A DNA stretch of 64,000 bases from Pelagicoccus sp. SDUM812005. Lineage in GTDB: Bacteria; Verrucomicrobiota; Verrucomicrobiia; Opitutales; Opitutaceae. A program made the translations under genes and the position numbers. Shown here piece after piece: positions 374-38,858 of this stretch. The stretch's first letter is position 1. Each line of letters begins with the position of its first letter. The notes below the pieces were generated by a model. That model did not search any database and was not told the DNA's origin. It saw nothing but the letters and a program-made list of their open reading frames with translations. The stretch covers positions 1 to 64,000 of the forward strand of contig NZ_JARXIA010000021.1 of the NCBI RefSeq assembly GCF_031127875.1, in the 5' to 3' direction.

Positions 374-384
374 TTTACCGAAAA
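374..384. promoter_or_regulatory. Candidate operator, TTTAC-N-GTAAA type
   Basis: TTTACCGAAAA, one mismatch from the palindrome, about 80 bp before the start codon at 465. It would control the isomerase/FG-GAP/RidA operon. Confidence 0.5.
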
Positions 385-464
385 GCGACTTGGCAACTGG
401 CTCCCCAGCGTCCTCTTGCCCTACCTTGGAAGCTCGCTCCAACTTCCCATTCCCCTAACGCTAC

Positions 465-1280
465 ATGGAATTCTCAATCCTTTCCGACGAGATCTCTCTC
501 GACATCGAAGAAGCGCTCCAGCACGGAGCCGCCCTCGGCTTTCGCAAGTACGAAATCCGCTGCATCGACGACTACGAACATCGCATTCCCTACTTCAAAC
601 CGGGCCGCGAGCAATACCTGCAGGAGAAGGTCGACTCCGGGGAGATCGAGGTGACCGCCGTCACTCCCGGCGTATTCAAGATCGACCTCAGCGATCCTGC
701 CCGCGTGCGCAAGGAACTGGACGAAACCTTGCCGCTGAGCTGCGAAATGGCCGTCCGCCTCAAGGCTCCCACCGTGATCGTCTTCGGCTTCATGCGGGGC
801 CCCGGCTCCGATCGCGAGCAAGCCGTTTCCTTGCTCAAGGAAGCCGCCAGCGTGGCCAAGAAATACAATCTCAAGCTCGCGGTGGAAAACGAGCCAGGCT
901 CCTTTTGCGACACCGGGGCCGCTACCGCCGACATCGTGGAGGAAATCGGCATGGACCACGTCGGTATCAATTGGGACCCGGGCAACGCTCTCACGGTGGG
1001 CGAGGTCCCCTTCCCGATCGGCTACGAACGGGTCCGCCCTTACTTGCAAAACATGCACATCAAGGACACCATCCCGATCCCGCCCGACAAGTGGGAAAAC
1101 CGCCTCGTAGGCGACGGCGGGGTCAACTGGATCGGGCAGCTGCAGGCCGTCATCAAGGACCAAGCCCTTCCGTTCCTCACAATCGAAACCCATGTCTTTC
1201 CCGTCCTAGAATCTACCCGCGAAGAGCTGCGACGGCTGAAGATCTACCTCGAAACCATCAAGCAGCTCGACTCCGCCTAG
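465..1280 (+). CDS. Xylose-isomerase-like TIM-barrel protein (sugar phosphate isomerase/epimerase family)
   Basis: A 271-residue protein without a signal peptide, so cytoplasmic. It has the AP-endonuclease-2/xylose-isomerase-like TIM barrel pattern: a VENEPGS strand end near residue 145, a GINWDPGN segment near 170 and MHIKD near 200. In this family such Glu, Asp, His and Glu residues at strand ends bind a divalent metal and catalyse aldose-ketose isomerisation or epimerisation. IETHVF near 245 supplies a further Glu and His. Substrate cannot be told from sequence. It opens a tight three-gene plus-strand run (6-bp gap to the FG-GAP gene). Two more proteins of this superfamily lie at 37977-38753 and 38915-39790, which suggests several isomerisation steps in one pathway. 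Confidence 0.85.
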   Translation: MEFSILSDEISLDIEEALQHGAALGFRKYEIRCIDDYEHRIPYFKPGREQYLQEKVDSGEIEVTAVTPGVFKIDLSDPARVRKELDETLPLSCEMAVRLKAPTVIVFGFMRGPGSDREQAVSLLKEAASVAKKYNLKLAVENEPGSFCDTGAATADIVEEIGMDHVGINWDPGNALTVGEVPFPIGYERVRPYLQNMHIKDTIPIPPDKWENRLVGDGGVNWIGQLQAVIKDQALPFLTIETHVFPVLESTREELRRLKIYLETIKQLDSA

Positions 1281-1286
1281 CTCGGT

Positions 1287-3248
1287 ATGGCCCCGCTCTT
1301 AAAAGGCTTCGCCCCCGCCGCGCTGGCCCTGATCGCCGTCGCCGTAGCCCCCACGCAGGCGACTGCCCGCGAATGGGAGCGCGCCACCGCAAGCGCCGGA
1401 CTCGACGGCATCGAGGCGTCCCGACTCAAATTCGTCGACCTCAACCAGGACCGACGGCCGGACGCAGTTATCCTGCCTGACAACAGCGCCTCCGCTCCCC
1501 GCATCTTTCTCAACCTAGCCCGCCCCAAGTCGCCACTCGGGTTTCGCTATATCGAAAAAACGGATACAGGCCTCCCGCTCCTCAGCAAGGCCGACATTAT
1601 CGCCTTCGCCGATATCGACAACGACGGCAAGCAAGACGCTCTCATCGGCCGCAACCTCGACATCTACCAGAGCAACTACGCACCGCCTGCGGAGGCCCCC
1701 AAAACCAGCGCCTGGCTGCCGGGGAAAGGCGACGGCTCCTTCGGCGCCCCAATCCCGATTCCCGCCGCAAGCCTCGCGACCACCTGCTCCATCGCAGTCG
1801 GCGACGTCAACGAAGACGGACTGCCCGATCTCTTCATCGGCAACTGGTACGAGCGCTACTTTTCTGGATACGAGGCCTTTGCCAACGACCTCCTTTTGCA
1901 ATACCGCCCTCCCGCAGGCAGCCCCGCCTTCGTTCGCTGGCCATTGCCCAACGAAACCGCCCCCACCGACTACACGACCGACCTAGGGGGACGTCCGACT
2001 TACGGTACGGCCTTCGCCCGCCTCGACGACGGTTTGCCGATGCTCGTCGAGCTCAACTACGGCCGCCGCTGGAACCGTCTCTACAAGATGGATACGCGCA
2101 AACCGCTGCGCGAGCTCAAGGACTATCCCGCCACGCCCTTCATCCTGCAAGAGCCCAAAGCCCTGGCCGCCCACCTCGTGCGCCACCTCAAAGGCCGCGA
2201 CATCGCCGCTGAAGCCGGAGTAGACGGCGACGCGATTCGCCATGGCCGTCACCAAAAGTGGCCGCTCGAGCTCGCCAACGACAAACCGCGCTCCCTGCGT
2301 CCCGACGAGCCTCCTTTCCGAGCCAACGGGAACACCTTCGACGTCGCAGTGGGCGATATCGACAACGACGGCGACTTCGACCTCTTCGTCAGCACCATCT
2401 TCCACGCTTGGGCAGGCGACTCCTCGGACCGCTCCCGCTTTCTCGTCAACCAATTCGCCGACAGCGGAACGGTCGCTTTCCAGGAGTCCGAGCGACTTTC
2501 GGTGGACCGCCTTCCCGAGCCACCGGGCCCGGGCGAAAAGTGGCAGTACCACCACGTGCGCCAGAACCAGGGCGACATCTTCGCGGAGTTGGCCGACCTC
2601 GACCAGGACGGGCGCCTCGACCTGATCCTTTGCTCCTCCGACTATGCCGACGAAGCGCCTTACGAAGAACGGCTGCGAATTTTCCTGCAGCAGCCCGACG
2701 GGAGCTTCGCCGATCGCACGGCCCAGCTCGGCATCGACCATATCGGGGCCGGCATGCCTTCCCTCGCGGACGTCGATCTCGACGGCGACCTGGACTTGCT
2801 GGTTGGCCAGAGCTTCAATCGCCTGACCCAAGACCAGCGCCAAGCGGCCTCCGTCGCCAGCGGGGCCCTCCCCCCCAACCACCCGGCAGACGCAGCTCCG
2901 GAACGACGGGCCAGCCTTTTCCTCAACCCCGCCAGCGAACAGAACCATTCCATTACCTTCACCCTCGTCGGCAGTCCGGAAGACAACGTCAGCCGCGACG
3001 CCTACGGAGCCATCGTCCGCCTGACCGCCGACCTGGACGGCGACCCCAGCACGCCCGAGGTCACGCAAGCGCGACAACTCCTCGGTCCCGGCGGTCATGC
3101 CGGAAAGCAGCACCCGCTTCTCATCCACTTCGGGCTCGGCCGCGCCACGCACGCTAGCGCGGTAGAGATCGTCTGGCCCAATCCGCAACGCGAAACCACT
3201 CGCCTCACTCAGCTCGCCCCCGGGCACCACGAAATCACGTATCCATGA
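1287..3248 (+). CDS. Exported FG-GAP/VCBS repeat protein with ASPIC/UnbV-like C-terminus
   Basis: This 653-residue protein starts with a Sec signal peptide (hydrophobic stretch ending near ATA at residues 26-28). At least six calcium-binding-like FG-GAP loops are visible, for example DLNQDRRPD, DIDNDGKQD, DVNEDGLPD, DIDNDGDFD, DLDQDGRLD and DVDLDGDLD, spaced through residues about 50-510. They imply a beta-propeller-like surface or periplasmic domain. The last 100 residues (VEIVWPNP and an adjacent G-rich stretch) resemble the ASPIC/UnbV module. Such proteins are common in Planctomycetes and Verrucomicrobia, and their roles are mostly unknown. Its stop overlaps the next start by an ATGA, so it is translationally coupled to the RidA-like lipoprotein. 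Confidence 0.85.
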   Translation: MAPLLKGFAPAALALIAVAVAPTQATAREWERATASAGLDGIEASRLKFVDLNQDRRPDAVILPDNSASAPRIFLNLARPKSPLGFRYIEKTDTGLPLLSKADIIAFADIDNDGKQDALIGRNLDIYQSNYAPPAEAPKTSAWLPGKGDGSFGAPIPIPAASLATTCSIAVGDVNEDGLPDLFIGNWYERYFSGYEAFANDLLLQYRPPAGSPAFVRWPLPNETAPTDYTTDLGGRPTYGTAFARLDDGLPMLVELNYGRRWNRLYKMDTRKPLRELKDYPATPFILQEPKALAAHLVRHLKGRDIAAEAGVDGDAIRHGRHQKWPLELANDKPRSLRPDEPPFRANGNTFDVAVGDIDNDGDFDLFVSTIFHAWAGDSSDRSRFLVNQFADSGTVAFQESERLSVDRLPEPPGPGEKWQYHHVRQNQGDIFAELADLDQDGRLDLILCSSDYADEAPYEERLRIFLQQPDGSFADRTAQLGIDHIGAGMPSLADVDLDGDLDLLVGQSFNRLTQDQRQAASVASGALPPNHPADAAPERRASLFLNPASEQNHSITFTLVGSPEDNVSRDAYGAIVRLTADLDGDPSTPEVTQARQLLGPGGHAGKQHPLLIHFGLGRATHASAVEIVWPNPQRETTRLTQLAPGHHEITYP

Positions 3249-3769
3249 AATCACGACTCATCGCATCTACCTTGGTCGCCTTCTCCTGCCTATCGCTCGC
3301 CTCTTGCGCCGATACGCCGGAAAGCCGGCTCCAAGCCCTCGACATTACGCTCGTCACCAAAAGCGCGCCCGTAGCCAACTACGTCAGCGCCGTGCGCTCC
3401 GGCAATCTGATCTTCCTCGCCGGGCATCTGCCCAAGCGGGAGGATGGGGCCCTGGTGACAGGCAAGCTCGGCGACGGCCTCGCCACGCAGGAAGGCTACG
3501 ACGCGGCCCGACTCACCGCCATTGCCCTGATCGCAACGCTCAAGTCTGAACTCGGCGAACTCAGCAAGGTAAAGCGAATCGTCAAGGTATCCGGCATGGT
3601 CAACGCAACGCCCGACTACACCGAGCACTCGCAAGTGATCAACGGCTGTTCGGACCTCCTGGTCGAGGTATTCGGAGATCGAGGACGGCACGCTCGGGTG
3701 GCTTGCGGCTACGCTTCGCTTCCCCTCAACGCCGCCGTCGAAATCGACCTCATCGTCGAGGTCGAGTAG
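3245..3769 (+). CDS. RidA/YjgF-family lipoprotein
   Basis: A 174-residue protein with an N-terminal lipoprotein signal (lipobox LASC, Cys about residue 21), followed by a full-length RidA/YjgF/UK114 domain. The family signature near the C-terminus (RVACGYASLPLNAAVEID) is intact, including the conserved Arg that binds the carboxylate of imine/enamine intermediates. RidA proteins deaminate reactive 2-aminoacrylate-type enamines and are usually cytoplasmic, so a lipid anchor in the envelope is unusual. The start overlaps the end of the FG-GAP gene (ATGA), which fixes the start. An exported class V PLP protein follows on the other strand (3777-5057). Whether the two act on a common periplasmic intermediate is only an inference. 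Confidence 0.85.
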   Translation: MKSRLIASTLVAFSCLSLASCADTPESRLQALDITLVTKSAPVANYVSAVRSGNLIFLAGHLPKREDGALVTGKLGDGLATQEGYDAARLTAIALIATLKSELGELSKVKRIVKVSGMVNATPDYTEHSQVINGCSDLLVEVFGDRGRHARVACGYASLPLNAAVEIDLIVEVE

Positions 3770-3776
3770 AACGTAT

Positions 3777-5057
3777 TTATAAGCTCGCTACGGTGGAGCG
3801 AACCGCATCCACGTAGCGAAGCGCGTCCGCTTCCTGATGATACACGTGCCAGGAAGCACGTACCCCGTTGAGATCCTCTTCCGTGACCACGCGGGTGCGG
3901 AACTTGAATTCCTTGGACAAGCGGCTGCTCACATCCATGCAGCTGACGCCCGGCACCCGGAAGGTCAGGATGGAGCTACGCATGGCGGAGTCGAGCGGGC
4001 TGAGAAGCTCCACGCCCTTGATTTCCTGCAAGCCTTGCGAGACCAGCTCCGACAAGCGAGCTCCGTGCTCGGCGATCCGTTCCCGGCCAATCTGTTCCTG
4101 CAGGGCGATCGCTTTCTCGAGCCCTACGACACTAGCCGCGTTGCGGGTGCCATACTCGTGGCGAGTCGCCGCTGCCGCGTACTCCAAAGTGTCCGGCAGT
4201 TCGTAGGCCGAATCTGAATACGCTCCGATGTGGCTGCATACGACTTCGTCGTTTCGCTCGGCTGCGATATAGAGAATGCCAGTCTCGATCGGTCCGTTGA
4301 GCCATTTGTGGCCGCTGGTCGCGTAGGAATCGCAGCCAAGATCCTTCACGTCGAAGGGAAACATACCGGCGCTTTGGGCCCCGTCCACATGAAACCAGAT
4401 CCCACGCCGCTTCGCTTCCGCCGCGATGGCCGGGATATCGAAAATCAATCCGGTAGTGGCCGTCACGTGACTCACTTGGATCACGCGGGTGCGGCGGGTC
4501 ACCTTGGCGAAGAGTCGCTCCAGGTTTTCCTCCACGCTGCGGGAAGACGGCTCGAAGATCTTCACCTTTACGCCATCCAGCTTTTGGCGATTCATCCAAG
4601 CGAAGGAGCCGCCAGGATGGGCGTGCGACTCGAAGAGCACTTCGTCGCCCTTGCGCAACTTCAGGCCGCTGGAGATGATGGAATTTCCTTCCGAGGCATT
4701 GCGCACGAAGGCGATCTCGTTCGGCTTGGCCCCCAGGAAAGCCGCCGCGCTTTCACGAGCCCCTGCGAAAAGCTTGTGGTAGTGCTCGCCGATGCGACCC
4801 TGCAGCTGGCACTGCTCCGCGACCGCGTCCAACACGGGTTGGGAGGCCGGCCCCAGACCGCCCGTATTCAAGTAGGTCACCTCGGAACGCAGCGGAAACA
4901 AGGCTCGCACCTCGTCCCAGTTGCCGACCGCCAAGCCGCTCGAGCCCGCGCTCTTTTGCGGGGTCAGCTTCGCCCCGAAAACCTTGGCTCCCGCCAGGGC
5001 GCTTGCTCCGCCGGCCGCGACCGTTCTAAGAAAACGTTTCCGATCCATATTTCCCAT
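3777..5057 (-). CDS. Exported class V aminotransferase-fold PLP enzyme
   Basis: This 426-residue protein has a Tat-like leader (DRKRFLRT then a small-residue-rich hydrophobic stretch), although the twin-arginine position is RK rather than RR. The class V aminotransferase/cysteine desulfurase/isopenicillin-N-epimerase fold follows. HVDGAQ (Asp about 225) would contact the PLP ring nitrogen and SGHKWLNGP (Lys about 251) would form the Schiff base. Both are intact, so an active PLP enzyme is expected. Reactions in the family include transamination, epimerisation, beta-elimination and desulfuration, and the exact one is not predictable. An internal ATG nine bases in (5048) is an alternative start. 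It is divergent from the peptidase E gene, with a palindromic site between them at 5105-5115. Confidence 0.85.
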   Translation of the reverse strand: MGNMDRKRFLRTVAAGGASALAGAKVFGAKLTPQKSAGSSGLAVGNWDEVRALFPLRSEVTYLNTGGLGPASQPVLDAVAEQCQLQGRIGEHYHKLFAGARESAAAFLGAKPNEIAFVRNASEGNSIISSGLKLRKGDEVLFESHAHPGGSFAWMNRQKLDGVKVKIFEPSSRSVEENLERLFAKVTRRTRVIQVSHVTATTGLIFDIPAIAAEAKRRGIWFHVDGAQSAGMFPFDVKDLGCDSYATSGHKWLNGPIETGILYIAAERNDEVVCSHIGAYSDSAYELPDTLEYAAAATRHEYGTRNAASVVGLEKAIALQEQIGRERIAEHGARLSELVSQGLQEIKGVELLSPLDSAMRSSILTFRVPGVSCMDVSSRLSKEFKFRTRVVTEEDLNGVRASWHVYHQEADALRYVDAVRSTVASL

Positions 5058-5104
5058 CCAAGCAACTTGAGAGATGAGCCCGGGAAATTGAAAGAAACTT
5101 CCGG

Positions 5105-5115
5105 TTTACGGTAAC
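5105..5115. promoter_or_regulatory. Candidate operator, TTTAC-N-GTAAA type
   Basis: TTTACGGTAAC, one mismatch from the palindrome. It lies in the divergent gap, about 48 bp before the minus-strand start at 5057 and about 98 bp before the plus-strand start at 5213. Confidence 0.55.
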
Positions 5116-7397: not shown

Positions 7398-7408
7398 TTT
7401 ATCGTAAA
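7398..7408. promoter_or_regulatory. Candidate operator, TTTAC-N-GTAAA type
   Basis: TTTATCGTAAA, one mismatch from the palindrome, 55 bp before the start at 7464. Confidence 0.5.
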
Positions 7409-7463
7409 CTCAAAACCCTCTCGATTCCCCTCTCCACCTAGGGTCGGATAGGGCTCCTCATTC

Positions 7464-12550: not shown

Positions 12551-15500
12551 TTACCACTCGTAGGTGGCGGAGAGCGATACCAGGCGTCCGCGCATGAAGC
12601 GGTAGACCATGGAGCCGTCCGGATTCGCGTAGATGGGCACCAGGTCGTCGTTGTCGAAGAGGTCCTTGATGTTCAACTGGACCGCCAGACTCCGGTCGTC
12701 CTTCAAGCTGTATTCGGAACGGAAGAACAGGTCGATGAAGTCCTGGGATCCGGCGTAGAACGGCTTGTTGGGATCGAAGTCCATATCGCCAAACTCGTTT
12801 TCGCTGATGCCGAAGCCGATACCGGCCTTGTCCTGCCAGCGGTAGCCGCCACCCACGGTGAACTTGCCGAGGAAGTCGGGGATGGATCCGCTACCAGCTT
12901 CGAAGCCGTAGCTGGTGTTCAGGTTGAAGCGCCACTCTCTCTGCTCGATCGAAGGAATGCCTTCCTGCGTCAGGGCGGCCGCTACAGGGGTGACGATCGC
13001 ATCAGTCGCTTGCTCGGCCAAGGTCTTGGTGCCGAGATCGTCGATGTAGTAGTTCTTGGCGAAATCGCTGTTGACCCAATTTGGAATGACGAAGTCGTTA
13101 ACGTACTGGCGCAGCGTCGGGTAGATGTTCGAGAGAACCGTCTGCTGCTTGCCTACGGTGACCATGGTGGTCCAGCGCTCGTTGGGATTGAGGGCGAGCT
13201 CGAGCTCGTAACCTTTCGCGGTGAAGTCCTGGGTGCCGGTATCGCCGGAGTTGCGATCGGTCGTGGCAGTGAAGTTCGTCCAGTCTGGCACGAAACCATT
13301 GACGTCGATCACGCCTTGCGGAGGAAGCACCGCTTGCGCATCCGCAGCGGTGAAGCCCTGCACTGTGTTGGCAGGATTGTCGAGCTGCTCGACGAGACCC
13401 TTCAGGATGCCTTCGCTGGCGGAAACGCCGCCGGCGTCGAAGGTGTTGTTGAGGATGCCGGTTTCGTACTTGTTCAAGCGAGCGGAGATCTTGCCGTCCG
13501 AACTGCGGTAGATGATGCCCTGCTCCTCGGTGGAACCGGTTACCGGAGCGATGGACTCGTTGAAGACGTTTACGCGGCCGCCGCTAGGCTGGAAGTTGTC
13601 GGACTCCGTCATGTAGAGGGAGATGTCCGGCACGTCGCCGCCAAACATGTCGCGCAGGTGCACCGTGGCGCTCCAGGAGGTGGTGTCATCGTTGGCGTCT
13701 TCCTCCAGGTCTTCCGCGAGAGGTCCCACTTGGAAGGTCGGATCGTAGAGCCTATCGCCTTCGCTAGTGATGCCCACGCCGCCGGGGGCGCTGATGGAGG
13801 TGCTGCTCAGCTTGTCGTTGCGCCAGGTACCCATCAGGACGATGGAGTTGTCCCAGAGGTAGTGCTGGGCCACGACCACTTGCGACTCGAGCTCTTCGAG
13901 GCCTTTGCCGGCAAAGAAGGAAGCGGGATAGTTGCCGCCGTCGTCCATGTTGTAGGTGGTGGCGTCGAACTCGACGTATTCGCCGGCGCTTTGGGACCAC
14001 CCGGTCCAGGTACCGCCTACCACGGGTCGATCCCGCTCCTGCCCGAAGGGCACGCCGCCAATGTTCGCTCCCTTGAGGTCGTCGAGGGAAGTGATAGCGA
14101 GGTAGTCGATGTTGGGATTATGCGGCAGCTCGAAGATGCTGCCGGTGCGGATGGTGGCGAAGCTGAGGGGGGTGTCGCCCTGAAGAGCTTGCACGACCGA
14201 GTTGGGATCGATCTTGTAGCGACCGTAGGACTCGGAATCGCGCAGCTCGCGCTCCTGCAGTACGCCGGTGAACTTCAGGCGGCCGAGGATGCGGGACAGC
14301 TTGCTCTCGTCCATGAAGTCCTCGAAGCGGATTTCGCCGTAGCCGGTGAGGCGGGTCGAATCGCGATCGGCGGACAGGTTGTTGCCCTGCCACCAGCCGC
14401 CGATTACCGGCTTGCCGAAGTGCGGATTGGGAACCAAGGCCCCGTCCGGCGTGCCGTCTACGGTGGCGTTGAGATACATGTTGGGATCGATGTAGATCGT
14501 GCGCTGGCTCAAGCCTTGCAAGGGGTTGGAGGACTTGGAGAACTGCTCTTGCTTGAACATCGCCAACTCGAAGCCGAGCTGGTTGTCGAACCAGGAGCCT
14601 TCCAAGGCGGCATCCATCACGCTCCAGTCGGAGTTCTGGGAGTGGGCCCCACCGGTGTAGAGGTGCTTGCGATAGTCGAAGATGCTGGTGTCGGTGAGCT
14701 GGGTCGCCACGAAGCCGCCGATGTAGAAGCCTCCCGTGCCTGCCTCGACCGGCGTGCCGTCGGGGTAGTGGCCGGAGCGACGGATGATGTCCTCGCGAGT
14801 ACGGGGCTGGAAAAGCATCAGCTCGCCAGTGACGTCCCCGCCGGGAGCGCCGCGATTTGCTCGGATGAAGGTGTTGCCGCCGAAGAAAGGCGCCACGTCC
14901 GTGTTGTTGAAGTAGCTGACGAAGCCGCTGGACGCTCCTGGGCCGGCGAGATCGAGGAAGGCGTTGTTGGCGACGCCGGGCACGAAGTCGCCCGAGCTGC
15001 GCCAGAGATCGGAACCGTCGGCTCCTCCCATGGAAATCGGCTTGCCCATCTCGATCCAAGGCGTGATCCCGTCATTGGGAGGCGTCTGGTCCGGGTTGGC
15101 GGAGTGGCGGGAACCGGCCTCGATGCTCGCATGGGCCCGCAGGTTCTCGTTGATCTTCCAGGTCACCGCCGCGTAGATGCGCTCGTCTTCGAGGAAAGCT
15201 TCCTTTTGCTCGTATTCGCGGTCCTCCATGAGGCCGGCCACGCGGATGGCGAGCTTGTCCTCGATGATGACATGGTTGTGCCTGAAGGAAGCGCGACGCG
15301 TACCGTGCTCGTCCGTCTCCAAGCGTACGCGTCCAAAATCTGAATACAGGTTCGCCCGCAGTGTAGTGTTATTTACAATACCGCCTGGACTGCCGATGCC
15401 GAAGAGCGCGGAGTTGGCGCCGCGCTGCACTTCCACGCGTTCCGTATTGTAGGTGTCGAAGGGAACTTCCGTGTTGAAGTAGTTGCGAGTCAAGTCCGCC

Positions 15501-15913
15501 TCGGCCAAGCCGCGTACGCGGGAGGTTCCGCCTTGAGGACGGTCCGTTTCCGTTTCCGGAATCGCGTTTCCCGCCGAGGATTGGTAGCCTGAAAAGTTGC
15601 CGTTGATCCCGGATACTTCCGTGTTCGGGGTAAACAGGAGGGCGTCGCCGATCGTGTTGGAACCGGTATCGTCCAGGAAGTCCTCGTTGAGGATGGAGAC
15701 GGACGCCGCAATGTCTCGCATGTTGGTGCTGAGGCGCGTGCCGGCAAGGGACGAGGTCGATAGATAACCAACATCCTGCGAGCCATCCACCGAGAAAGGC
15801 GAAAGCTCGAAGACCTCTTCATCGTCAGAGGCGGCGTTTTGGGCATATAGTCCCGAAAACGCGGGTAGACTGGACGCCATGAGGCTCAGTCCGAGTATTT
15901 TTTGTAGGCTCAT
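12551..15913 (-). CDS. TonB-dependent outer-membrane receptor (paralogue 1)
   Basis: A protein of about 1120 residues: signal peptide ending near LYAQN, an acidic linker with ELSPFSV, then a plug domain. The plug shows GTRLSTNMRDIAASVSI, an RVRGLAEADLTRNYF segment and VEVQRGANSALFGIGSPGG. A long beta-barrel ends in an aromatic residue (YEW) as usual for outer-membrane insertion. There is no CarboxypepD/SusC-type N-terminal domain and no SusD partner, so it is a TonB receptor of the Verrucomicrobia/Proteobacteria style. Likely substrate is an oligosaccharide of the island. The ATG at 15913 is chosen over a TTG two codons upstream (15919). A nearby paralogue is at 16502-19858. Confidence 0.92.
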   Translation of the reverse strand: MSLQKILGLSLMASSLPAFSGLYAQNAASDDEEVFELSPFSVDGSQDVGYLSTSSLAGTRLSTNMRDIAASVSILNEDFLDDTGSNTIGDALLFTPNTEVSGINGNFSGYQSSAGNAIPETETDRPQGGTSRVRGLAEADLTRNYFNTEVPFDTYNTERVEVQRGANSALFGIGSPGGIVNNTTLRANLYSDFGRVRLETDEHGTRRASFRHNHVIIEDKLAIRVAGLMEDREYEQKEAFLEDERIYAAVTWKINENLRAHASIEAGSRHSANPDQTPPNDGITPWIEMGKPISMGGADGSDLWRSSGDFVPGVANNAFLDLAGPGASSGFVSYFNNTDVAPFFGGNTFIRANRGAPGGDVTGELMLFQPRTREDIIRRSGHYPDGTPVEAGTGGFYIGGFVATQLTDTSIFDYRKHLYTGGAHSQNSDWSVMDAALEGSWFDNQLGFELAMFKQEQFSKSSNPLQGLSQRTIYIDPNMYLNATVDGTPDGALVPNPHFGKPVIGGWWQGNNLSADRDSTRLTGYGEIRFEDFMDESKLSRILGRLKFTGVLQERELRDSESYGRYKIDPNSVVQALQGDTPLSFATIRTGSIFELPHNPNIDYLAITSLDDLKGANIGGVPFGQERDRPVVGGTWTGWSQSAGEYVEFDATTYNMDDGGNYPASFFAGKGLEELESQVVVAQHYLWDNSIVLMGTWRNDKLSSTSISAPGGVGITSEGDRLYDPTFQVGPLAEDLEEDANDDTTSWSATVHLRDMFGGDVPDISLYMTESDNFQPSGGRVNVFNESIAPVTGSTEEQGIIYRSSDGKISARLNKYETGILNNTFDAGGVSASEGILKGLVEQLDNPANTVQGFTAADAQAVLPPQGVIDVNGFVPDWTNFTATTDRNSGDTGTQDFTAKGYELELALNPNERWTTMVTVGKQQTVLSNIYPTLRQYVNDFVIPNWVNSDFAKNYYIDDLGTKTLAEQATDAIVTPVAAALTQEGIPSIEQREWRFNLNTSYGFEAGSGSIPDFLGKFTVGGGYRWQDKAGIGFGISENEFGDMDFDPNKPFYAGSQDFIDLFFRSEYSLKDDRSLAVQLNIKDLFDNDDLVPIYANPDGSMVYRFMRGRLVSLSATYEW

Positions 15914-16142
15914 AGTCAAACGTAACTTACGTAGATTGTAGGTTGAGGTTAGGGGTGTATAAGGGGTTACGGGGTAATTCTCGTTGCCCTATTCAGGAGC
16001 CGAGGAACGTTTCGACGTTCGGTGTCGGAATAAGGGGTCGTTCCGACAAGGGGTTCCCTTTTCAGGGAAGACGATACTCGATCATCAAATGAGGGCGGGG
16101 GTTAAATATGGGTAAAACCTAGCTGACGAGGGCCCTGCCCGG

Positions 16143-16174
16143 CTAACTCTTTACTGTTTTACGGTAATCCGTAA
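16143..16174 (-). promoter_or_regulatory. Conserved upstream element of TonB receptor gene 1, with operator
   Basis: A 32-bp block matching 20056-20087 at 28 of 32 positions. It contains TTTACGGTAAT at 16158-16168 and an overlapping inverted repeat TTACGG/CCGTAA (16159-16174), so two regulator dimers might bind side by side. It lies about 245 bp before the start. Confidence 0.6.
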
Positions 16175-16501: not shown

Positions 16502-19500
16502 CTAGAAGCTGTAGGTCGCGGACAGCGATACGACGCGACCTTCCGAGATGCGGTAGGTCTGCGAACCGTCGGGATTCGCGTAGATGCCCACGAGGTCCGT
16601 GTGGTCGGTCAGGTCCGAAACGTAGAGCTGCAAGGACAGGTCTTGCTCGAACACCTTCGTATCGAAGCTGACGAACATGTCCAAGTAGGTTTCGGACGGC
16701 GTGTAGTAAGGATTCGAGAGGTCGCGAATAACCTGGCCAGCCACGTTGGTGGTGGCCGCGAATCCGATGATCGCCTCGTCCTGGTAGCGTACGGTACCGC
16801 CTACTTCGAAGTTGGATATGTTGTAGTCTCCGAGGAAGTCCTCGAAACGGTACTTGGATGTCGCGATCACGCTCCACTCGCGCTGCTCCGGAGCGGGCGA
16901 ACCGTCCAGTTGCTTGGAAGCTTGCAGCGGGATGGCGATGGCTTGCTCGGCGTACTGGGCCAAGGTCGTGTCGGAGGTGTCGTTGATGTAGTAGTTCTGG
17001 GCGAAGTCGCTGTCGATCCAAGTCGGCTTCACGAACTCTTCGTACCACTGGGTGAGCACGGGAGAGGTGTTGTCGAAGCTGGTCTTTTGCTTGGAAACCT
17101 TGATCACGTTGGTCCAGTTGTCCGTCGGGCTGTAAAACACTTCCACTTCGACGCCCTTGGACAAGGTGTCCTGGGTGCTGTTGCGGAAGGAGTTGGCGTT
17201 GGAGGTAGCCTCCGCGTTGGCCCAATCGAATATCACGCCTTGCAGGTCGATGACTCCTTGCTCCGGCAGCATCGCTTGGGCGTCGGCCGCCGTGAAGCCT
17301 TGGTCGACGTTGTCCGGGTTGTCCAGCTGTCGAGCGAGGTTAACCAGAATGTTTTCCGGGGCAACTACGGCGCTGGTGTAATAGGAGCTGTAGAGCGTGC
17401 CGGTCTCGTACCAGTTGAACTTCGCGAGGAAGTTCCCTTGCGGGGACGTGAGGGAGAAGCCCATTTCCTTGGTGCTGCCGGTTTCGGGCGTGATGTCGCC
17501 ATTGAGCACGTTCTTGCGACCGGAGGTCACGCGGAAGTTCTCGCCGGTGCCGTAGTGCAGGGAAACGTCCCAGTTCTTCAAGCGCTCGAGCAGGAAGTCA
17601 GGGGTGTGCATCACCACGCCCCAGGTGCGGATCTGGCCGGAAGTCGGATCTCCGTAATCGCCCAGCACGTAGCTGTCCGCGTCGAGGTTGTCCAAGCTGG
17701 AGTAGTCCGAACGGCCCGGAGCGCCGACTCCGACGCTCTTGACGGTGTCCTCTCTCCAAGCCCGCTGAACTACGATGTTGTCGTCCCACAGGTAGAAGAT
17801 CCCGTTGAGCACCTTGGACTCGATCTTTTCGCGATTCTTGGAAGCGCTGAAGGTGACGTTTTCGTAGTCGCCGGCCCTGGCGGTGTAGGTGTTGATGACC
17901 GCGTCGTCCCAAGTCTGGGTCGCCGTGTTGAACAGCTGGAAGGTCCCGCTGGAAGGCAGCACTTGGGAACCGTTGATGGGCTGGATGTTGATGCCGCCCA
18001 ACTCCGAGATGTCGTTGTAGTCCAGCAAGCTCATTCCGTCCGGCAGGCCGGGGATGCTCAAGGCATGGTACTGCCCGAGACGGCCGCCCCAGGTGTCGAT
18101 GGTGCCGACGGCGCCGACCATGTCGGAGATGTCCGGCGAATCACGCGTGTAGAACTCCTCGGTGCTGAGCTCGCGCTCCTGGTAGACACCCGTCAGGTCG
18201 GCGTGGCCGAGCAGGCGTTCCCAGAAGGAATCTTCCTCGAAGAAGTCGGAGAAACGGAAATCGTAGCCGACCGTGCCACGCAAGGACGAGCGGTCCGCCC
18301 AGCTGATGCCGTTTTCGGCTCGGCTGACCACCGCGACGCCGCCGTAGTTGGGATTGGGGATCAGTTCCCCGCCAGTGCTTTCCTCGGAGATGCCGAGGTA
18401 CGGGTTGAAGTCGATCATGATCGATTCGCCCGATGGGTCGCCGCGCAGGATGTTGAACTGCCCTTCCTGGAATTCCTCGGAATTGTAGGCGAGCTCGAAG
18501 GCCAAGCGATTGTCGAACATGAGCTTTTCCATGGAAACGCTGTACTGCTGGAAGTCCGAAAAGCTGGTGCTCAGGCCGCCGTCCAGGAGGTGCTTGCGGT
18601 AGTCGAAGATGCTGCGGTCCGTGATCTGGGCGCCGGTGTATTGGTCGTAGAGCGAACCGCTGCCGGCGTACGGGATGGGCGTACCGTCCGGATAGATGCC
18701 GAGTTGCTGGATGGTGTAGTTGATCGGACGCATGGAGAGCATGGTCGAGTACCAGGAACCGGCCGCCGTGTCGGATCCTCCGTCCACGAAGCTAGTCGGC
18801 ATGTAGATGCGTCCCGCGTAGGTCGGCTCGGAGCTGTTCGGATCCATGAAGAAGTACGTCGGACCGAGCGAACCGAGCGGAGCTACGATCTGGCGGCTGT
18901 TGGCGAGGCCGTTGATGCCCTCCGTCTCGAAGTAGGCGTCGGCCGCTTCGGTAGGCGTATCGTAGATGGGCTTGCCGAAATCGTACCAGCCGGAGATCAA
19001 GTCGCCGGGAGGAATGGCCCGCGGCGAGGCTCCGGAACGTTCGCCGTCCTCGATGCTGGCGCGGATCGAGAAGGTGTCGTCGAATGGGCGAAACAGGGCG
19101 CTCAAGTAGAGGCGGTCGTCGTTGTAGTAGGCTTCCTTCTGCTCGTACTTCTCGTCTTCCTTCAGGCCAGCAACAACGATGGCAAACTTGTCCTCGACGA
19201 TTTCCTTGTTGTAGCGGAATTCGCCGCGAAGAGTGCCGAACTCGTCCGTCTTCAGCTTCACGTGGCCGAAGTCGTACATGCGGGCCTTGATGAGGCTGTT
19301 GTTCACGATGCCGCCGGGGCTGCCGAGGCCGAAAAGAACCGCGTTGGCCCCTCTCTGTACCGTGACGCGATCGATGTTGTAGGCGTCAAAGGCGATGTCG
19401 GTGCGGAAGTAGTCACGGGTCAGGTCCGCCGAAGCCAGACCGCGTACGCGCGTCACGCCGCCTGAAGTATTGTCGCGGGCCAGTTCGCCGATAACCAAGC

Positions 19501-19858
19501 CGGTGCCGGCTCCCTGGGATCCGGAAAAGTTTCCGCCCAGGCCGCTCACTTCCGTATTGGCTTGAAACAACAGGACTCCTTCCAAGTCCGTTGCATTGGT
19601 GTCCTTCATGAAGTCTTCGGTGACGATGGAGAGCGAAGCCGACAGGTCCTTCGTTGCAGTCTTCAAGCGACTTCCCGCAAGGGTCTGAGTCGCGTAGTAG
19701 CCATTGTCCTCGCGGCTACTGACAGTAAAAGGAGACAGCTCGAATATTTCGTCGTCGTCGTCTCCTTCTGACAGGGTAGAATTTTGGGCGTAGCTGCCAA
19801 TCCCCGTAAACAGACCAAAGGCCAGAGGCACTAGTCCAAGTTTGTTATTTAAGCGCAT
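16502..19858 (-). CDS. TonB-dependent outer-membrane receptor (paralogue 2)
   Basis: A 1118-residue protein built like its neighbour at 12551-15913: signal peptide ending near GSYAQN, acidic linker (DDDDEIFELSPFTV), plug with GSRLKTATKDLSASLSIV and VTVQRGANAVLFGLGSPGG, barrel, and terminal aromatic F. Internal stretches match paralogue 1 closely (FDYRKHL, GIYANPDGS, RVVSLSATY), which points to an old tandem duplication with divergence of the extracellular loops, hence perhaps different ligands. The ATG at 19858 fits the signal peptide. The gene has its own terminator and its own upstream copy of the shared 32-bp element, so the two receptors are separate transcription units under common control. 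Confidence 0.92.
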   Translation of the reverse strand: MRLNNKLGLVPLAFGLFTGIGSYAQNSTLSEGDDDDEIFELSPFTVSSREDNGYYATQTLAGSRLKTATKDLSASLSIVTEDFMKDTNATDLEGVLLFQANTEVSGLGGNFSGSQGAGTGLVIGELARDNTSGGVTRVRGLASADLTRDYFRTDIAFDAYNIDRVTVQRGANAVLFGLGSPGGIVNNSLIKARMYDFGHVKLKTDEFGTLRGEFRYNKEIVEDKFAIVVAGLKEDEKYEQKEAYYNDDRLYLSALFRPFDDTFSIRASIEDGERSGASPRAIPPGDLISGWYDFGKPIYDTPTEAADAYFETEGINGLANSRQIVAPLGSLGPTYFFMDPNSSEPTYAGRIYMPTSFVDGGSDTAAGSWYSTMLSMRPINYTIQQLGIYPDGTPIPYAGSGSLYDQYTGAQITDRSIFDYRKHLLDGGLSTSFSDFQQYSVSMEKLMFDNRLAFELAYNSEEFQEGQFNILRGDPSGESIMIDFNPYLGISEESTGGELIPNPNYGGVAVVSRAENGISWADRSSLRGTVGYDFRFSDFFEEDSFWERLLGHADLTGVYQERELSTEEFYTRDSPDISDMVGAVGTIDTWGGRLGQYHALSIPGLPDGMSLLDYNDISELGGINIQPINGSQVLPSSGTFQLFNTATQTWDDAVINTYTARAGDYENVTFSASKNREKIESKVLNGIFYLWDDNIVVQRAWREDTVKSVGVGAPGRSDYSSLDNLDADSYVLGDYGDPTSGQIRTWGVVMHTPDFLLERLKNWDVSLHYGTGENFRVTSGRKNVLNGDITPETGSTKEMGFSLTSPQGNFLAKFNWYETGTLYSSYYTSAVVAPENILVNLARQLDNPDNVDQGFTAADAQAMLPEQGVIDLQGVIFDWANAEATSNANSFRNSTQDTLSKGVEVEVFYSPTDNWTNVIKVSKQKTSFDNTSPVLTQWYEEFVKPTWIDSDFAQNYYINDTSDTTLAQYAEQAIAIPLQASKQLDGSPAPEQREWSVIATSKYRFEDFLGDYNISNFEVGGTVRYQDEAIIGFAATTNVAGQVIRDLSNPYYTPSETYLDMFVSFDTKVFEQDLSLQLYVSDLTDHTDLVGIYANPDGSQTYRISEGRVVSLSATYSF

Positions 19859-20055: not shown

Positions 20056-20087
20056 CTAACCCTTTGCCGTTTTACAGTAATCCGTAA
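20056..20087 (-). promoter_or_regulatory. Conserved upstream element of TonB receptor gene 2, with operator
   Basis: Matches 16143-16174 at 28 of 32 positions; contains TTTACAGTAAT at 20071-20081, about 213 bp before the receptor start. Confidence 0.6.
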
Positions 20088-20173: not shown

Positions 20174-20192
20174 GCGCTTTACAGTAAAGCGC
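20174..20192. promoter_or_regulatory. Perfect 19-bp palindromic operator
   Basis: GCGCTTTACAGTAAAGCGC is a perfect palindrome about an odd centre and contains the only exact TTTAC-N-GTAAA match found. It lies 88 bp before the start at 20281 of the gene next to the LacI regulator, so it is the likeliest high-affinity site of the regulon. Confidence 0.7.
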
Positions 20193-20280
20193 AGCTCGCT
20201 ATTTAACCTTACGGGTGCCCGCGTTGTTCTTTGCCTGTCGGCGACTATCGTCCGGCGCGACCACCAGGACCGTTCTTACA

Positions 20281-21291
20281 ATGAGTATCAAGACAGCCAT
20301 CGTCGGCTTCGGGCAAAGCGGAGAGCTCTCCCACGCATACGGAATCCAAGCGAACCGTGAATTCGACCTCGTCGCCACCTGCGACCTTTCGCCCGAGCGT
20401 CGCAACTACGCTCGGCAAAACCTCTCCTGCGAGAGCTACCCCGACCATCGCGAACTGCTCGCGGCCCGCTCCGACCTCGAACTGGCCGCCATCGTCACTC
20501 GCTCGGATACGCATTGCGCAGTCGCCTGCGAACTTCTGGAAGCGGGAGTCAACGTTCTGGTAACCAAGCCCTGGGCCCTCAACGCCATCGAGGCCGAAAA
20601 GATGATGCAGGCCCAGCAATCAAGCGGCAAACGCATCTTTCCTTGGATACCAATGTATTGGTCGCCCGAATACACGAAGATCAAGGAACTGGTCGCCGAC
20701 GGGGCGATCGGCCGCGTTTTCGCGATCCGTCGCTACATCGCCCAATTCAGCCAGCGCTCGGACTGGCAAACCCACCTCAAGTACGGCGGCGGCTACCTCA
20801 ACAACTGGGGAGCCCATATCGTGCAGCCCTTGCTGGACCTCGCCGACAGCCCCGTAAGCCGCGTTTCCGGACACCTACAACAAGCGATCAACGGTGGCGA
20901 CGGGGACGACAATTTTCTAGCTGTCATGGAATTCGAAAACGGCATCCTCGGCATCGCCGAATACGCCCAAGCCATGGAGGGCTTGCCCTCCTTCCTGGTC
21001 CAGGGCACCCACGGCACCATCGTATCCGACGGAAGCGCCATCACGCTGCTGCAGAAAGATCCGGCCCAAAGCGGCGATGCGAAGCGTTCCCAATTCGCTA
21101 TCCACGGCAAGCGCTTCGGCGACGAGGCCGACATCTACCGCGACGTAGCTCGCAGCTTGCTGGAGGGAGTTCCGTTTCGCGCGAGCGTGGAGGACGCCTA
21201 CTACGGAACCGACGTGCTCGACGCCATACGCGAGTCCCATTTGAAAAAAACGGCCGTATCCAAATTTCCGTCACTCAATTCCCTCGTTTGA
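20281..21291 (+). CDS. Gfo/Idh/MocA-family oxidoreductase
   Basis: A 336-residue cytoplasmic enzyme. The N-terminal Rossmann fold has VGFGQSGE for NAD(P). The family Lys lies in VTKPWALNAIEAEKM (about residue 95, the EKP position reads TKP), and the substrate domain has GGGYLNNWGAHIVQPLLDL with the usual His (about 180). Members oxidise or reduce sugar hydroxyls or carbonyls. Its likely role is a dehydrogenase early in the sugar pathway. ATG 20281 is chosen because the Rossmann strand follows at once (MSIKTAIVGFG); the frame could extend to a GTG at 20215 without homology. The LacI gene follows after 165 bp, possibly in the same transcript. Confidence 0.88.
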   Translation: MSIKTAIVGFGQSGELSHAYGIQANREFDLVATCDLSPERRNYARQNLSCESYPDHRELLAARSDLELAAIVTRSDTHCAVACELLEAGVNVLVTKPWALNAIEAEKMMQAQQSSGKRIFPWIPMYWSPEYTKIKELVADGAIGRVFAIRRYIAQFSQRSDWQTHLKYGGGYLNNWGAHIVQPLLDLADSPVSRVSGHLQQAINGGDGDDNFLAVMEFENGILGIAEYAQAMEGLPSFLVQGTHGTIVSDGSAITLLQKDPAQSGDAKRSQFAIHGKRFGDEADIYRDVARSLLEGVPFRASVEDAYYGTDVLDAIRESHLKKTAVSKFPSLNSLV

Positions 21292-21456: not shown

Positions 21457-22536
21457 ATGAACAAAGTACAACCATCCTGTAAGACCATCGCGAAAGAAGC
21501 CGGCGTAAGCCGCATGACCGTATCCATGGCCCTGCGAGATCACCCTCGCGTGGCTCCGGAGACTCGCGAGCGCATCAAGGAAATCGCCAAGCGCCAAGGC
21601 TACACCCCCGACCCCAACCTCACCGAGCTCATGCGCTACCTGCGCAAGCGGGACATCAGCAAGGAAGAACCCGTCATCGCCATCCTCAACCCGAAGCGGG
21701 CCCCCTTGAAGAAACTTTGCAAAGACTCCCTCCTCATCCGCGAAGGCGTCAAGCAACGCGCCGAGGAACTGGGATTCAAGACGGAAGACTTTTGGCTGCA
21801 CGAACCGGGCATGCGCCTCAAGCGCATCGTGCAAATCCTGGAAACGCGCGGCATCCGCGGCATCGTAGTCCTCCCGGTCGAAGACTTGCACGACGTCTTT
21901 TCCTTGCCGGAAGAAAATTTCACCGGAGTCGCCACCTGCGGCGTAGCAGCGAAACTTGGATACAACCAAGTTCATCCTCACTTCTACCAATCCATGCACA
22001 TGGGCGTGTCCAGCTTGATGAACCAAGGTTTCAAGCGTATCGGATTTTGCATTACAGACTCCGAGGACGAACGCTCCAACCACCTCTACCAAAGCTACCT
22101 GCTCTGGCATCAGAAGAATACGCCCGCGAAAGACCGGGTCCCCATCCTCTCCAGCAAGGAGATCACCAAGGACGCCCTGGTGAAGTGGGTGAAGAAGGGC
22201 AAGCCGGACGTGGTGCTCAGCCCCAACGTGGAGCACTACCAGTGGCTCAAGGAGGCGGGTTTCAACATTCCCGAGGACCTCAGCTTCGCCGCCCTCAATC
22301 CCGCTACCGACGACACCGGCGAAATCGCCCAGGTGCGCATCGGCTTCCGCAAGATCGGAGCCACTGCCGTTGACCTGCTCAAGTCCAAGCTGGCCAACGA
22401 GCAGGTCGGTCCCCTGCAGAACCCAGCCGTCACCCTCATTCGCGGCGAATGGGTCGACGGCAAGAGCGTCAAAGCTCCCAAGGCTCCCGAAAAGCAGGAC
22501 AAGGACGCCTCCGCACCCCTGCAGAAGGCAGGCTGA
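21457..22536 (+). CDS. LacI-family transcriptional regulator
   Basis: A 359-residue regulator. The N-terminal helix-turn-helix is AKEAGVSRMTVSMALRDH (about residues 11-28), followed by a hinge segment ending RQGYTPDPN and a periplasmic-binding-protein-like effector domain (residues about 65-340). The SMALR recognition helix is the type common in Verrucomicrobia and differs from the VSRVL of enterobacterial LacI proteins. It is the only regulator inside the island and sits among its transporters and enzymes. It is therefore the best candidate reader of the TTTAC-N-GTAAA sites, with a sugar or sugar acid as inducer. No good copy of the site lies directly before its own start. A strong terminator follows. 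Confidence 0.9.
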   Translation: MNKVQPSCKTIAKEAGVSRMTVSMALRDHPRVAPETRERIKEIAKRQGYTPDPNLTELMRYLRKRDISKEEPVIAILNPKRAPLKKLCKDSLLIREGVKQRAEELGFKTEDFWLHEPGMRLKRIVQILETRGIRGIVVLPVEDLHDVFSLPEENFTGVATCGVAAKLGYNQVHPHFYQSMHMGVSSLMNQGFKRIGFCITDSEDERSNHLYQSYLLWHQKNTPAKDRVPILSSKEITKDALVKWVKKGKPDVVLSPNVEHYQWLKEAGFNIPEDLSFAALNPATDDTGEIAQVRIGFRKIGATAVDLLKSKLANEQVGPLQNPAVTLIRGEWVDGKSVKAPKAPEKQDKDASAPLQKAG

Positions 22537-24757: not shown

Positions 24758-24881
24758 AAGGGGTATTGTAGTGTAAACAGCTATACCGAACCTCCCTCGC
24801 CGCGCCGGCGACACAAGGAGGATCGCTCGATTTCAACACAGTGTCACCAATTCAACCTACGTAAACAACCGATCTGAACGA

Positions 24882-24892
24882 TGTACGGTAAA
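24882..24892. promoter_or_regulatory. Candidate operator, TTTAC-N-GTAAA type
   Basis: TGTACGGTAAA, one mismatch from the palindrome, 61 bp before the start at 24954 and 124 bp before the divergent symporter start. Confidence 0.55.
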
Positions 24893-24953
24893 CTGGGCCG
24901 CCCCTTGGGAAAGCCCTCGGGCCGCGGATAATCGAGGCCTTAATTCCACTTCT

Positions 24954-28941: not shown

Positions 28942-28952
28942 TTTACGGTCAA
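28942..28952. promoter_or_regulatory. Candidate operator, TTTAC-N-GTAAA type
   Basis: TTTACGGTCAA, one mismatch from the palindrome, in the 101-bp divergent gap, 36 bp before the minus-strand and 54 bp before the plus-strand start. Confidence 0.5.
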
Positions 28953-30596: not shown

Positions 30597-30607
30597 TTTA
30601 CCATAAA
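30597..30607. promoter_or_regulatory. Candidate operator, TTTAC-N-GTAAA type
   Basis: TTTACCATAAA, one mismatch from the palindrome, 65 bp before the start at 30673; controls the symporter/lyase/aminotransferase operon. Confidence 0.5.
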
Positions 30608-30672
30608 GCGGCGTGCCGGTCACGATTCGAGCCCCACTACCCTTATATGGTGACCTTCCTCATTGGATCACC

Positions 30673-34529: not shown

Positions 34530-34539
34530 ACCGACTTTC

Positions 34540-35766: not shown

Positions 35767-35777
35767 CGCTAAGCTGC

Positions 35778-36842: not shown

Positions 36843-36854
36843 GTATTCAAATTT

Positions 36855-37901: not shown

Positions 37902-37950
37902 AAGGGGAATTTTCAAGGATCCGGATGCAGTCCCGCAACCTTGCCCTCGG

Positions 37951-37961
37951 TTTACAGAAAA
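37951..37961. promoter_or_regulatory. Candidate operator, TTTAC-N-GTAAA type
   Basis: TTTACAGAAAA, one mismatch from the palindrome, 50 bp before the epimerase-like gene start at 37901. Confidence 0.45.
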
Positions 37962-37976
37962 CTCTGCGGAGCGTCC

Positions 37977-38753
37977 CTAGCCCTTGGCCCATTTCCGCAA
38001 GGTTTCCGCGTCCTTGCGAAAGTTTTCGACCGAATGGTCCTTCACGTGCTCGATACTGATCCATCGCTCGCGACCATCGGACCGCAAAATCTCCAGATAC
38101 TCCGACCAAACCTGCTCCCCCTCGCTCAACAACAAGGAGTGCGGCCACCCTTCTTTGGCGAAGTGGTTGCAATGCACGTTGCCAATCTTGGCAAGGAGCT
38201 GTCCTAAGCCCCGCAACCGGTAGTCCTGCTCCACCGACAGGTACGGCTGCCACAGGGTGAAAACGTTCTCGTGCCCAACCTCCTCCAGGAAGCGAGCCGT
38301 CGACTCGTTCGAGTCGGTCAAGGTATTGTCGTGGAACTCGAGGCCAACCGCGACTCCGCGACGCTGGGACTGCTCGCCGATTTCGCGGCAACGCTCGACG
38401 ATGCGCTGCCGATGTTCGCCAGCAATCTCCTTCGACCCCAACGTTCCCGCCCAAACCCGAATGCTTGGAGCCCCCAGTTCGCAGGCCGTATCCAACACCG
38501 CATTCCACGAAGGTTCATCCTCCGCCCAACGCGAAACGCACCCGTCGAAGCGATAGTAGGAACCGTAGCAGGATACCGCCAGGCCCGCCGCCTCTGTCAG
38601 CAGACGCACTTCTCTCGCTCGGGCCAGGTGTCCGTGCGGGACATGCACATCGCCGCCCCACTCGATTCCTTCGAGTCCCGCCTCGGCGACTAGCCGCACC
38701 AGCTCCTCTACGTCTAAGTCCCTAAAAGTGATGGATACTAAACCTGTTTTCAT
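37977..38753 (-). CDS. Xylose-isomerase-like TIM-barrel protein
   Basis: A 258-residue cytoplasmic protein of the sugar phosphate isomerase/epimerase family. GLEGIEWGGDVHVPHG (about 23-38), VAVGLEFHDNT (about 130) and WISIEHVKDH near the C-terminus supply Glu, His and Asp at barrel strand ends. The ATG at 38753 gives the family start MKTGLVSITF; a longer frame to 38807 has no homology. It is divergent from a second gene of the same superfamily (38915), sharing a 161-bp control region. Confidence 0.85.
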   Translation of the reverse strand: MKTGLVSITFRDLDVEELVRLVAEAGLEGIEWGGDVHVPHGHLARAREVRLLTEAAGLAVSCYGSYYRFDGCVSRWAEDEPSWNAVLDTACELGAPSIRVWAGTLGSKEIAGEHRQRIVERCREIGEQSQRRGVAVGLEFHDNTLTDSNESTARFLEEVGHENVFTLWQPYLSVEQDYRLRGLGQLLAKIGNVHCNHFAKEGWPHSLLLSEGEQVWSEYLEILRSDGRERWISIEHVKDHSVENFRKDAETLRKWAKG

Positions 38754-38847
38754 TTCGAAATCCGCTCGAGCTAGCCATTCAAGGGCCGGCCCCGTAGCGA
38801 CCACCACTTACGGAGGCGCTTCGACCCAGTGACGAGTTTTTCCAAGG

Positions 38848-38858
38848 CTTACGATAAA
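38848..38858. promoter_or_regulatory. Weak candidate operator, TTTAC-N-GTAAA type
   Basis: CTTACGATAAA, two mismatches from the palindrome, in the divergent gap between two isomerase-like genes, 56 bp before the start at 38915. Confidence 0.35.

Follow-up and report, generated by a model that had tools for sequence, protein, structure and literature searches.

How is a whole island of genes for uptake, depolymerisation and sugar-acid breakdown brought under common control? The question is raised by the first 64,000 nucleotides of contig NZ_JARXIA010000021.1 from Pelagicoccus sp. SDUM812005 (assembly GCF_031127875.1), hereafter the window, where copies of a palindrome, TTTAC-N-GTAAA, lie upstream of genes and a LacI-family protein is encoded in their midst. 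An original prediction, made from the letters alone, joined eleven such sites into one island-wide regulon, named the LacI protein as a possible reader and left undecided whether control would be by repression or activation. The regulon itself is now well supported by the genome background, the intergenic bias of the motif, its conservation across Opitutales and the conservation of LacI alongside it. Taking the spacing of promoter-like elements into account, we think it probable that the island's own LacI-family protein uses the palindrome as its operator and acts from this odd-length site as a local activator.

How unusual is the cluster? A re-scan returned all eleven coordinates and mismatch classes exactly as first given: the copy at 20178 is exact, those at 374, 5105, 7398, 16158, 20071, 24882, 28942, 30597 and 37951 carry one mismatch, and the weakest, at 38848, carries two. 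With at most one mismatch the window holds 11 matches, whereas 100 dinucleotide-preserving shuffles average 0.45 and never exceed 3. One of these matches was absent from the earlier list, namely a copy at 31162 (TTTACCATAAA) inside the SSF2 frame, 565 bp past the identical SSF2 operator, which is probably due to chance. The 41–64 kb part contains no match at this threshold, as originally claimed; matches with two mismatches occur there at 41980, 52943 and 60741, about as many as in the shuffles.

Across the 6.65-Mb genome the motif is found 94 times with at most one mismatch and a reversed control pattern 103 times, so that the early estimate of about one single-mismatch match in 64 kb was a fair one; exact matches number 7 and 3, respectively. 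As the genome as a whole stays at control level, the island stands out as a sharp local cluster over a chance-like background. Outside the window, 46 of the 83 matches were inspected, and 11 proved intergenic and 35 coding, in DNA of which 86% lies in open reading frames (ORFs). An equal density of the motif in coding DNA or throughout the genome, which would have spoken against a regulon, was looked for and did not occur. Distant members of the regulon were sought with an extended pattern, GNTTTACNGTAAANC, allowing one mismatch: it gave 16 matches versus 9 for its control, 6 of the 16 within the window, and no convincing distant member was found.

Does the motif follow the regulator through evolution? 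Five other genomes carry syntenic islands with a LacI ortholog at 74–92% identity (compared genomes and loci are denoted here by G and L numbers). In the named sequence collection, 18 loci were returned, of which two weak Flavobacteriia matches were set aside; the remaining 16 encode a LacI ortholog at 68–92% identity. They place the same island in Pelagicoccus sp. SDUM812002 (G002), Verrucomicrobiae bacterium DG1235, Puniceicoccaceae bacterium K14 and thirteen metagenome bins of Opitutales and kin. These 16 loci contain 61 motif matches versus 7 for the control, with 4 loci repeating regions already counted. When 18 non-redundant islands are taken together, 86 sites are intergenic (in 57.0 kb) and 14 coding (in 469.5 kb), while the control pattern gives 1 and 12. 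This count used the first 41.5 kb of the window, where the ORF caller scored the site at 28942 as coding; the repeats L041, L042, L043 and L054 (of G002, G006, G015 and G019) were excluded from it and from the geometry scans below. The motif is thus present beside orthologous LacI genes in relatives, and the lack of conservation that would have told against the original prediction is not seen.

Conservation extends to the imperfections of single sites. A TTTAT deviation precedes h785 in 8 of 8 cases, TGTAC or TATAC is found in all 14 sites assigned to h527 by homology, and TTTTC precedes Epim in 6 of 6 genomes and GTTAC precedes AT5 in 4 of 4. TTTACCATAAA stands before SSF2 in 9 of the 10 loci of its group, with TTTACGATAAA in G019, and even the weakest site, 38848, is kept as C/GTTACGATAAA in G002, G007, G006 and G015. 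That each deviation is conserved at its own site suggests selection on the strength of each individual operator.

Which protein might read the palindrome? The product of 21457–22536 (plus strand) has the domain make-up of the LacI/GalR family, with PF00356 (LacI) at 1.6e-13 and PF13377 (Peripla_BP_3) at 7.2e-13. Its recognition helix, GVSRMTVSMALR, is identical in 6 of 6 aligned orthologs. A predicted palindromic operator, conserved and 19 bp long (20174–20192), lies close to its own operon, before MocA-LacI. The core is odd rather than of the canonical even type with a central CG; since the even operator is typical of the family and not universal, the assignment stands. Of 57 genomes, the same 6 encode both the LacI ortholog and that of h527 (remote h527 matches with up to 36% identity are also found in G003, G015 and G023). 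Among island proteins with Pfam matches, no regulator other than LacI was seen to be conserved across the islands, and in the window no other DNA-binding family was found among such proteins. A LysR protein at 42031 was considered as a reader and dropped, since none of the five ortholog regions gave a match to it at more than 35% identity. The proposal that LacI 21457–22536 reads the motif is in this way supported by association and seems likely.

The direction of control can be approached through the promoters. Aligned by eye, and then with every offset scored for likeness to −35 and −10 elements, the upstream regions reveal a constant gene-facing order: the 11-bp core, 12 bp, a −35-like hexamer, 17 bp and a −10-like hexamer, together forming a predicted promoter. 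The scan over promoter groups places the best −35 at offset 12 and the best −10 at offset 35, that is, with a 17-bp spacer, and T is most frequent, out of 80 columns, at +13, where the −35 begins, and at +41, where the −10 ends. In a first version, 98 oriented sites were sorted into 13 groups according to ORF length and orientation; no shift null of 2000 reached the observed peak, which stays with any group left out. This version dropped unnamed groups (including S51) and sites beyond 140 bp for MocA, 270 bp for TonB and 150 bp for AT5 and h785. MocA of G006 and G007 was added by hand, and later site 38848 (5 genomes) and window site 28942. Some assignments were wrong: in the MocA group, three sites (G019, L045, L051) in fact preceded a different frame and one (L048) preceded LacI, and one site of the SSF1 group (L050 2311) did not belong there.

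Sites were therefore regrouped by homology, giving 16 groups with 112 sites; 20 of 105 sites with no homologous gene start within reach were excluded and 21 farther or non-matching assignments dropped. The same peak returned, with 0 of 2000 shift nulls reaching it overall, without the 38848 family, and for loci outside Pelagicoccus. Single genomes gave 1 of 2000 (this genome), 0 of 1000 (G002 and G007 each) and 5 of 1000 (G006), so regrouping weakened two of them, from 0 to 1 of 2000 here and from 1 to 5 of 1000 in G006. The geometry ranks first of 52 in 9 of the 16 groups (SPI1, h785, TonB, MocA, h527, SSF2, Epim, SPI2 and h291) and among the best three in 11, with AT5 second and AH1 third. 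It also comes out best of 75 offsets, facing either way, at site 38848, which had been kept out of the first scan.

Start codons offer a view that does not depend on hexamer scores. A −10 ending at +41 predicts transcription to begin near +48, and this in turn puts the operator centre near −53. Measured from the site to the first ATG of a long frame within 130 bp (n = 81, ATG starts alone being counted), only 3 distances fall below 47 bp, two of them overlapping-frame artefacts and one in G019 at 36 bp. This crowding of ATGs from 47 bp onwards supports the promoter placement. It also revises the gene distances first reported: 47 bp to the ATG, rather than 35 bp, is the lower end for most genes, and the long TonB distances, put at 210–245 bp, hold with 212 and 244 bp. 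In all 4 genomes that showed it, the AT5 ATG lies exactly 47 bp from its site, and the Epim ATG lies at 47–50 bp in 5 of 6 (49 bp in the window). The mRNAs of AT5 (window 5057) and Epim (37901) are therefore predicted to be leaderless or nearly so, with leaders of 0–3 bases; no paper on leaderless transcripts in Verrucomicrobiota was listed in a search of the open-access literature.

What mechanism would join these observations? Operators upstream of −35-like elements point to activation, and their phase-locked position before weak −35 hexamers is its signature. What is shown is that the motif is present and enriched, that it is conserved together with the LacI gene and that it keeps a fixed distance from promoter-like hexamers; from this we infer the following steps. 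A LacI dimer would bind the roughly 17-bp operator, with the core centre about 18 bp before the first base of the weak −35, and the hexamers would serve as promoters. Bound near −53 on a fixed face of the helix, LacI would most likely recruit or stabilise RNA polymerase, so that about a dozen transcription units, which serve uptake, depolymerisation and the breakdown of sugar acids, are switched on. Single operators between divergent genes would serve both sides, and by driving its own operon LacI would create a positive feedback. The signal may be a sugar or sugar acid released from the island's substrate.

A second LacI locus of the same genome, C96 (L005, G000:C96:60000-73000), bears on this mechanism. 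Here the LacI gene is flanked on both sides by the exact core TTTACNGTAAA (sites 6065 and 7199, conserved in two further species, G002 and G007), next to a sodium symporter and a sulfatase-PL8 lyase pair, and its promoters carry TTG at +13 facing the symporter and the sulfatase. The C96 and island proteins share a methionine in the recognition helix. No C96 LacI ortholog was detected at E ≤ 1e-60 in G006 or G015; as both keep the island motif, the C96 protein is not needed for it. The genome contains 39 LacI helix-turn-helix matches, 37 of them above the curated cut-off. A scan for conserved palindromes with half-sites of at least 6 bases covered 17 LacI genes whose ortholog is present in G007 or G002; besides the window's own, four (L063, L064, L065 and L075) had one, and no geometry common to these four could be read. 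The scan passed over C96 because its 5-base half-sites fall under the minimum. The palindrome beside the LacI gene of L075, TTCTGACAGTCAGAA near 1417, is odd, identical in three species and has the same AC-N-GT centre.

Several observations weigh against activation by the island's LacI as outlined here. LacI is tied to the motif by association only, and three other LacIs among 30 examined share the helix methionine and have no motif upstream, so this residue alone explains nothing. Odd-length operators are rare in the family, at 4% of the motifs in the RegPrecise collection (PMC4052901). The hexamers, for which E. coli frequencies served as the scoring scheme, are weak, and SSF1 favours 13 bp instead of 12. 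Five groups rank the geometry lower among the 52 offsets: h177 (7), SSF1 (8), the single-site LacI of L048 (16), S51 on the other side of the 5105 operator (20) and a doubtful two-site group, g47929 (40). ATGs at only 36 bp occur in G019 (the frame after 23479) and at h177 of the window, which is not among the 81 distances above; in both cases a second ATG follows in frame 12 bp later, and starts with GTG or TTG were not counted. At C96 the promoters score poorly at −10, and nothing is found on the LacI-facing side.

Could the same regulon be run by an ordinary repressor? In that case the same LacI would leave its operators upon binding an inducer, having blocked the alpha subunit of the polymerase or formed a loop, which several operators in one island would permit. 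LacI-type proteins are typically repressors and only sometimes activators (PMC6882875, PMC2329647), and this explanation was considered first. It came to be ranked second after the spacing scan: operators over or downstream of the predicted promoter elements were not found, as the joint scan leaves 12 bp between the end of the core and the −35-like hexamer downstream of it, and the promoter would thus stay uncovered. Repression by CcpA uses sites at −9 and further downstream from the −35, and activation uses sites at −21 and −31 (PMC2329647). A fixed phase across many promoters would moreover be unnecessary for repression, which we hold to be unlikely here. Chance or base composition as the sole source of the cluster, with no regulatory role, might be argued from the copy in coding DNA at 31162 and the 83 further genome copies at background level. 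It is contradicted by the shuffles, the coding/intergenic contrast, the control pattern and the conserved site-specific deviations, was rejected on the shuffle and 18-island counts, and is scarcely credible.

Another regulator, encoded elsewhere, might read the motif and leave LacI a bystander or in control of its own operon alone. The exact core copies beside the C96 LacI lend this some weight, as do the island proteins with no Pfam match, which remain candidate regulators. Other proteins may also read similar words, given a motif/control ratio that is raised in Pelagicoccus genomes with the LacI ortholog. This ratio to the reversed pattern, compared over G000–G007, is 0.81–0.91 in four Pelagicoccus genomes with the ortholog and 0.36–0.60 in four without; G015 and G019, which have it, give 0.71 and 0.47, and G008 and G009, which lack it, 0.39 and 0.57. 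About ten island sites are seemingly too few to explain the gap. Against an outside reader speak the species that keep the island motif without a C96 ortholog, the missing LysR counterparts and the lack of any other DNA-binding family among island proteins with Pfam matches, and we consider it very unlikely. Activation by the island's LacI thus remains the preferred account, and the individual sites can be described in its terms.

Across the length-based groups the logo widens to [C/T]G-N-TTTAC-N-GTAAA-N-C[G/A], about 17 bp with an odd core and a free centre. The first candidate operator, TTTACCGAAAA (374–384, plus strand), precedes an SPI1-ASPIC-YjgF gene run with a −35-like element at 397–402 and a −10-like one at 420–425; its deviation is kept in G002 and G015. 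On the minus strand, GTTACCGTAAA in gene-facing direction (5105–5115) would serve AT5 (3777–5057, minus; −35-like TTCAAT 5087–5092, −10-like 5064–5069). The plus-strand site TTTATCGTAAA (7398–7408) precedes h785-h803, with TCGATT (7421–7426) and TCGGAT (7444–7449) as −35-like and −10-like hexamers. The same word is found in G002, G007, G006, L048 and L056, with TTTATTGTAAA in G015 and TTTATGGTAAA in L046.

Two minus-strand sites lie upstream of the TonB genes, ATTACCGTAAA (16158–16168, gene-facing) for TonB1 (12551–15919) and ATTACTGTAAA (20071–20081, gene-facing) for TonB2 (16502–19858). Elsewhere the TonB2 operator reads TTTACAGTAATccgtaaac (G002, G007, G006 and G015) or TTTACAGTAAT, the latter with no extra half-site (L044, L046, L048, L055 and L056). 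An additional upstream half-site, TTTAC at 20071, accompanies both window sites (TTTACGG-ATTAC..); it is present in four Pelagicoccus genomes and G015 and absent in remoter loci, and could possibly be a second dimer site. The exact core in its perfect 19-bp palindrome (20174–20192) precedes MocA-LacI, where it would mediate autoregulation. It is exact before MocA in G002, G007, G006, G015, L044 and L046 and has one mismatch in L048, L055 and L056; in G019, L045 and L051 a copy precedes another frame upstream of MocA. The Gfo/Idh/MocA oxidoreductase frame itself (20215–21291, plus strand; PF01408, PF22725, PF02894) probably starts at ATG 20282 rather than GTG 20215, because this fits the homologous frame better.

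Further predicted operators lie between divergent genes, the first two as shared ones. TGTACGGTAAA (24882–24892) lies between SSF1 (minus; −35-like 24864–24869) and h527 (plus; −35-like TTGGGA 24905–24910, −10-like 24928–24933). TTTACGGTCAA (28942–28952) separates h177-GxGYxYP (minus) from AH1-AH2 (plus), its deviation being kept in G002 and G007 and replaced by TTTACTATAAA in G006 and G019. The two-mismatch site at 38848–38858 stands between SPI2 (minus) and h291 (plus). Of the remaining sites, TTTACCATAAA (30597–30607, plus) precedes SSF2-Hepar-AT3 with TCACGA (30620–30625) and TTATAT (30643–30648) as −35-like and −10-like hexamers, and TTTTCTGTAAA (37951–37961, minus, gene-facing) would serve Epim-h354 (−35-like TTGCGG 37933–37938, −10-like 37910–37915). 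In G007 (L029, around 14322) and G006 (L032, around 13012) an exact operator lies between an extra gene for a 748-residue protein and a divergent one for a protein of 347 or 366 residues. These genes look glycosidase-like by eye alone, and entire gene pairs seem to have entered or left the regulon.

The island families comprise two TonB-type receptors, two sodium-solute symporters, a MocA oxidoreductase, two xylose-isomerase-like TIM barrels, two amidohydrolases, an enolase-superfamily protein, class III and class V aminotransferases, an epimerase, a GxGYxYP protein and a heparinase II/III-like lyase. Hepar resembles an oligoalginate lyase (3a0o, 1.5e-9), and for h785, h803 and h527 no sequence relative was found in the PDB at E ≤ 0.001. 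The model of h527 suggests a GH78-like rhamnosidase fold at modest confidence (predicted local distance difference test, pLDDT, 65); that of h785 is poor (pLDDT 54), its best match being GH138 with a template-modelling score of about 0.3. Our guess at the substrate is a polysaccharide that contains rhamnose together with uronic acids. The analysis provides predicted promoters and start sites for this island, several of whose enzymes match neither Pfam nor the PDB by sequence.

How far might the principle reach? Verrucomicrobiota may have made LacI-family proteins into dedicated local activators with a rigid architecture of odd core, 12 bp, −35, 17 bp and −10, and with partly leaderless mRNAs. 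We regard this as conceivable though rather doubtful: with no geometry common to the four scanned paralogs, its generality rests on C96. If it held, the C96 PL8 lyase/sulfatase locus would use the same word with TTG one base further out, and this may be a general switch for polysaccharide islands in the phylum. The spacing rule would then predict the direction of control in a phylum whose many LacI genes are readily labelled repressors by default.

How does the island compare with known systems? LacI is a textbook repressor family, and the activators considered for comparison (CcpA and AraQ/MalR1, as well as Cra, which is cited in passing) have a dual role and a global reach. If confirmed, a LacI protein that acts locally on about a dozen promoters at a common spacing would be a clean, testable case of activation for this fold. 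We found no paper on LacI operators in Verrucomicrobiota among the matches listed in the open-access literature, and none there for the phrase 'LacI family activator' and its variants; the word Verrucomicrobia is absent from the main text of the RegPrecise LacI study (PMC4052901). In that collection 1251 of 1303 motifs are even palindromes, usually with a central CG, and palindromic sites lie mostly 30–140 bp from start codons. Its local regulators resemble the island's LacI in being encoded amid carbohydrate genes and autoregulated, whereas the island motif is odd with a free central base and its operators stand clear of the promoter-like elements.

Closer parallels come from activators. CcpA of Firmicutes, also of the LacI family, acts from upstream of the −35 in a preferred helical phase: in L. 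lactis it activates from cre sites centred at −31 or −21 relative to the −35 (PMC2329647), and binding 14 bp upstream of the −35 has been quoted (PMC6882875). CcpA is global and dual, whereas the island's LacI is local, with a predicted activating place island-wide in the joint scan, an odd-length operator and a core centre about 18 bp before the −35. For the LacI-type AraQ/MalR1 of bifidobacteria, activation was likewise predicted from sites upstream of the −35, at variable distances (PMC5928203, PMC6882875). These regulators differ in being global and dual, in their even 20-bp operator and in sites 15–16 or 33–35 bp upstream of the −35, and their authors report no particular distance between site and −35. 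What appears new here is the combination of a local LacI-family regulator, an odd operator and an activating placement, with the fixed operator-promoter geometry as the new element.

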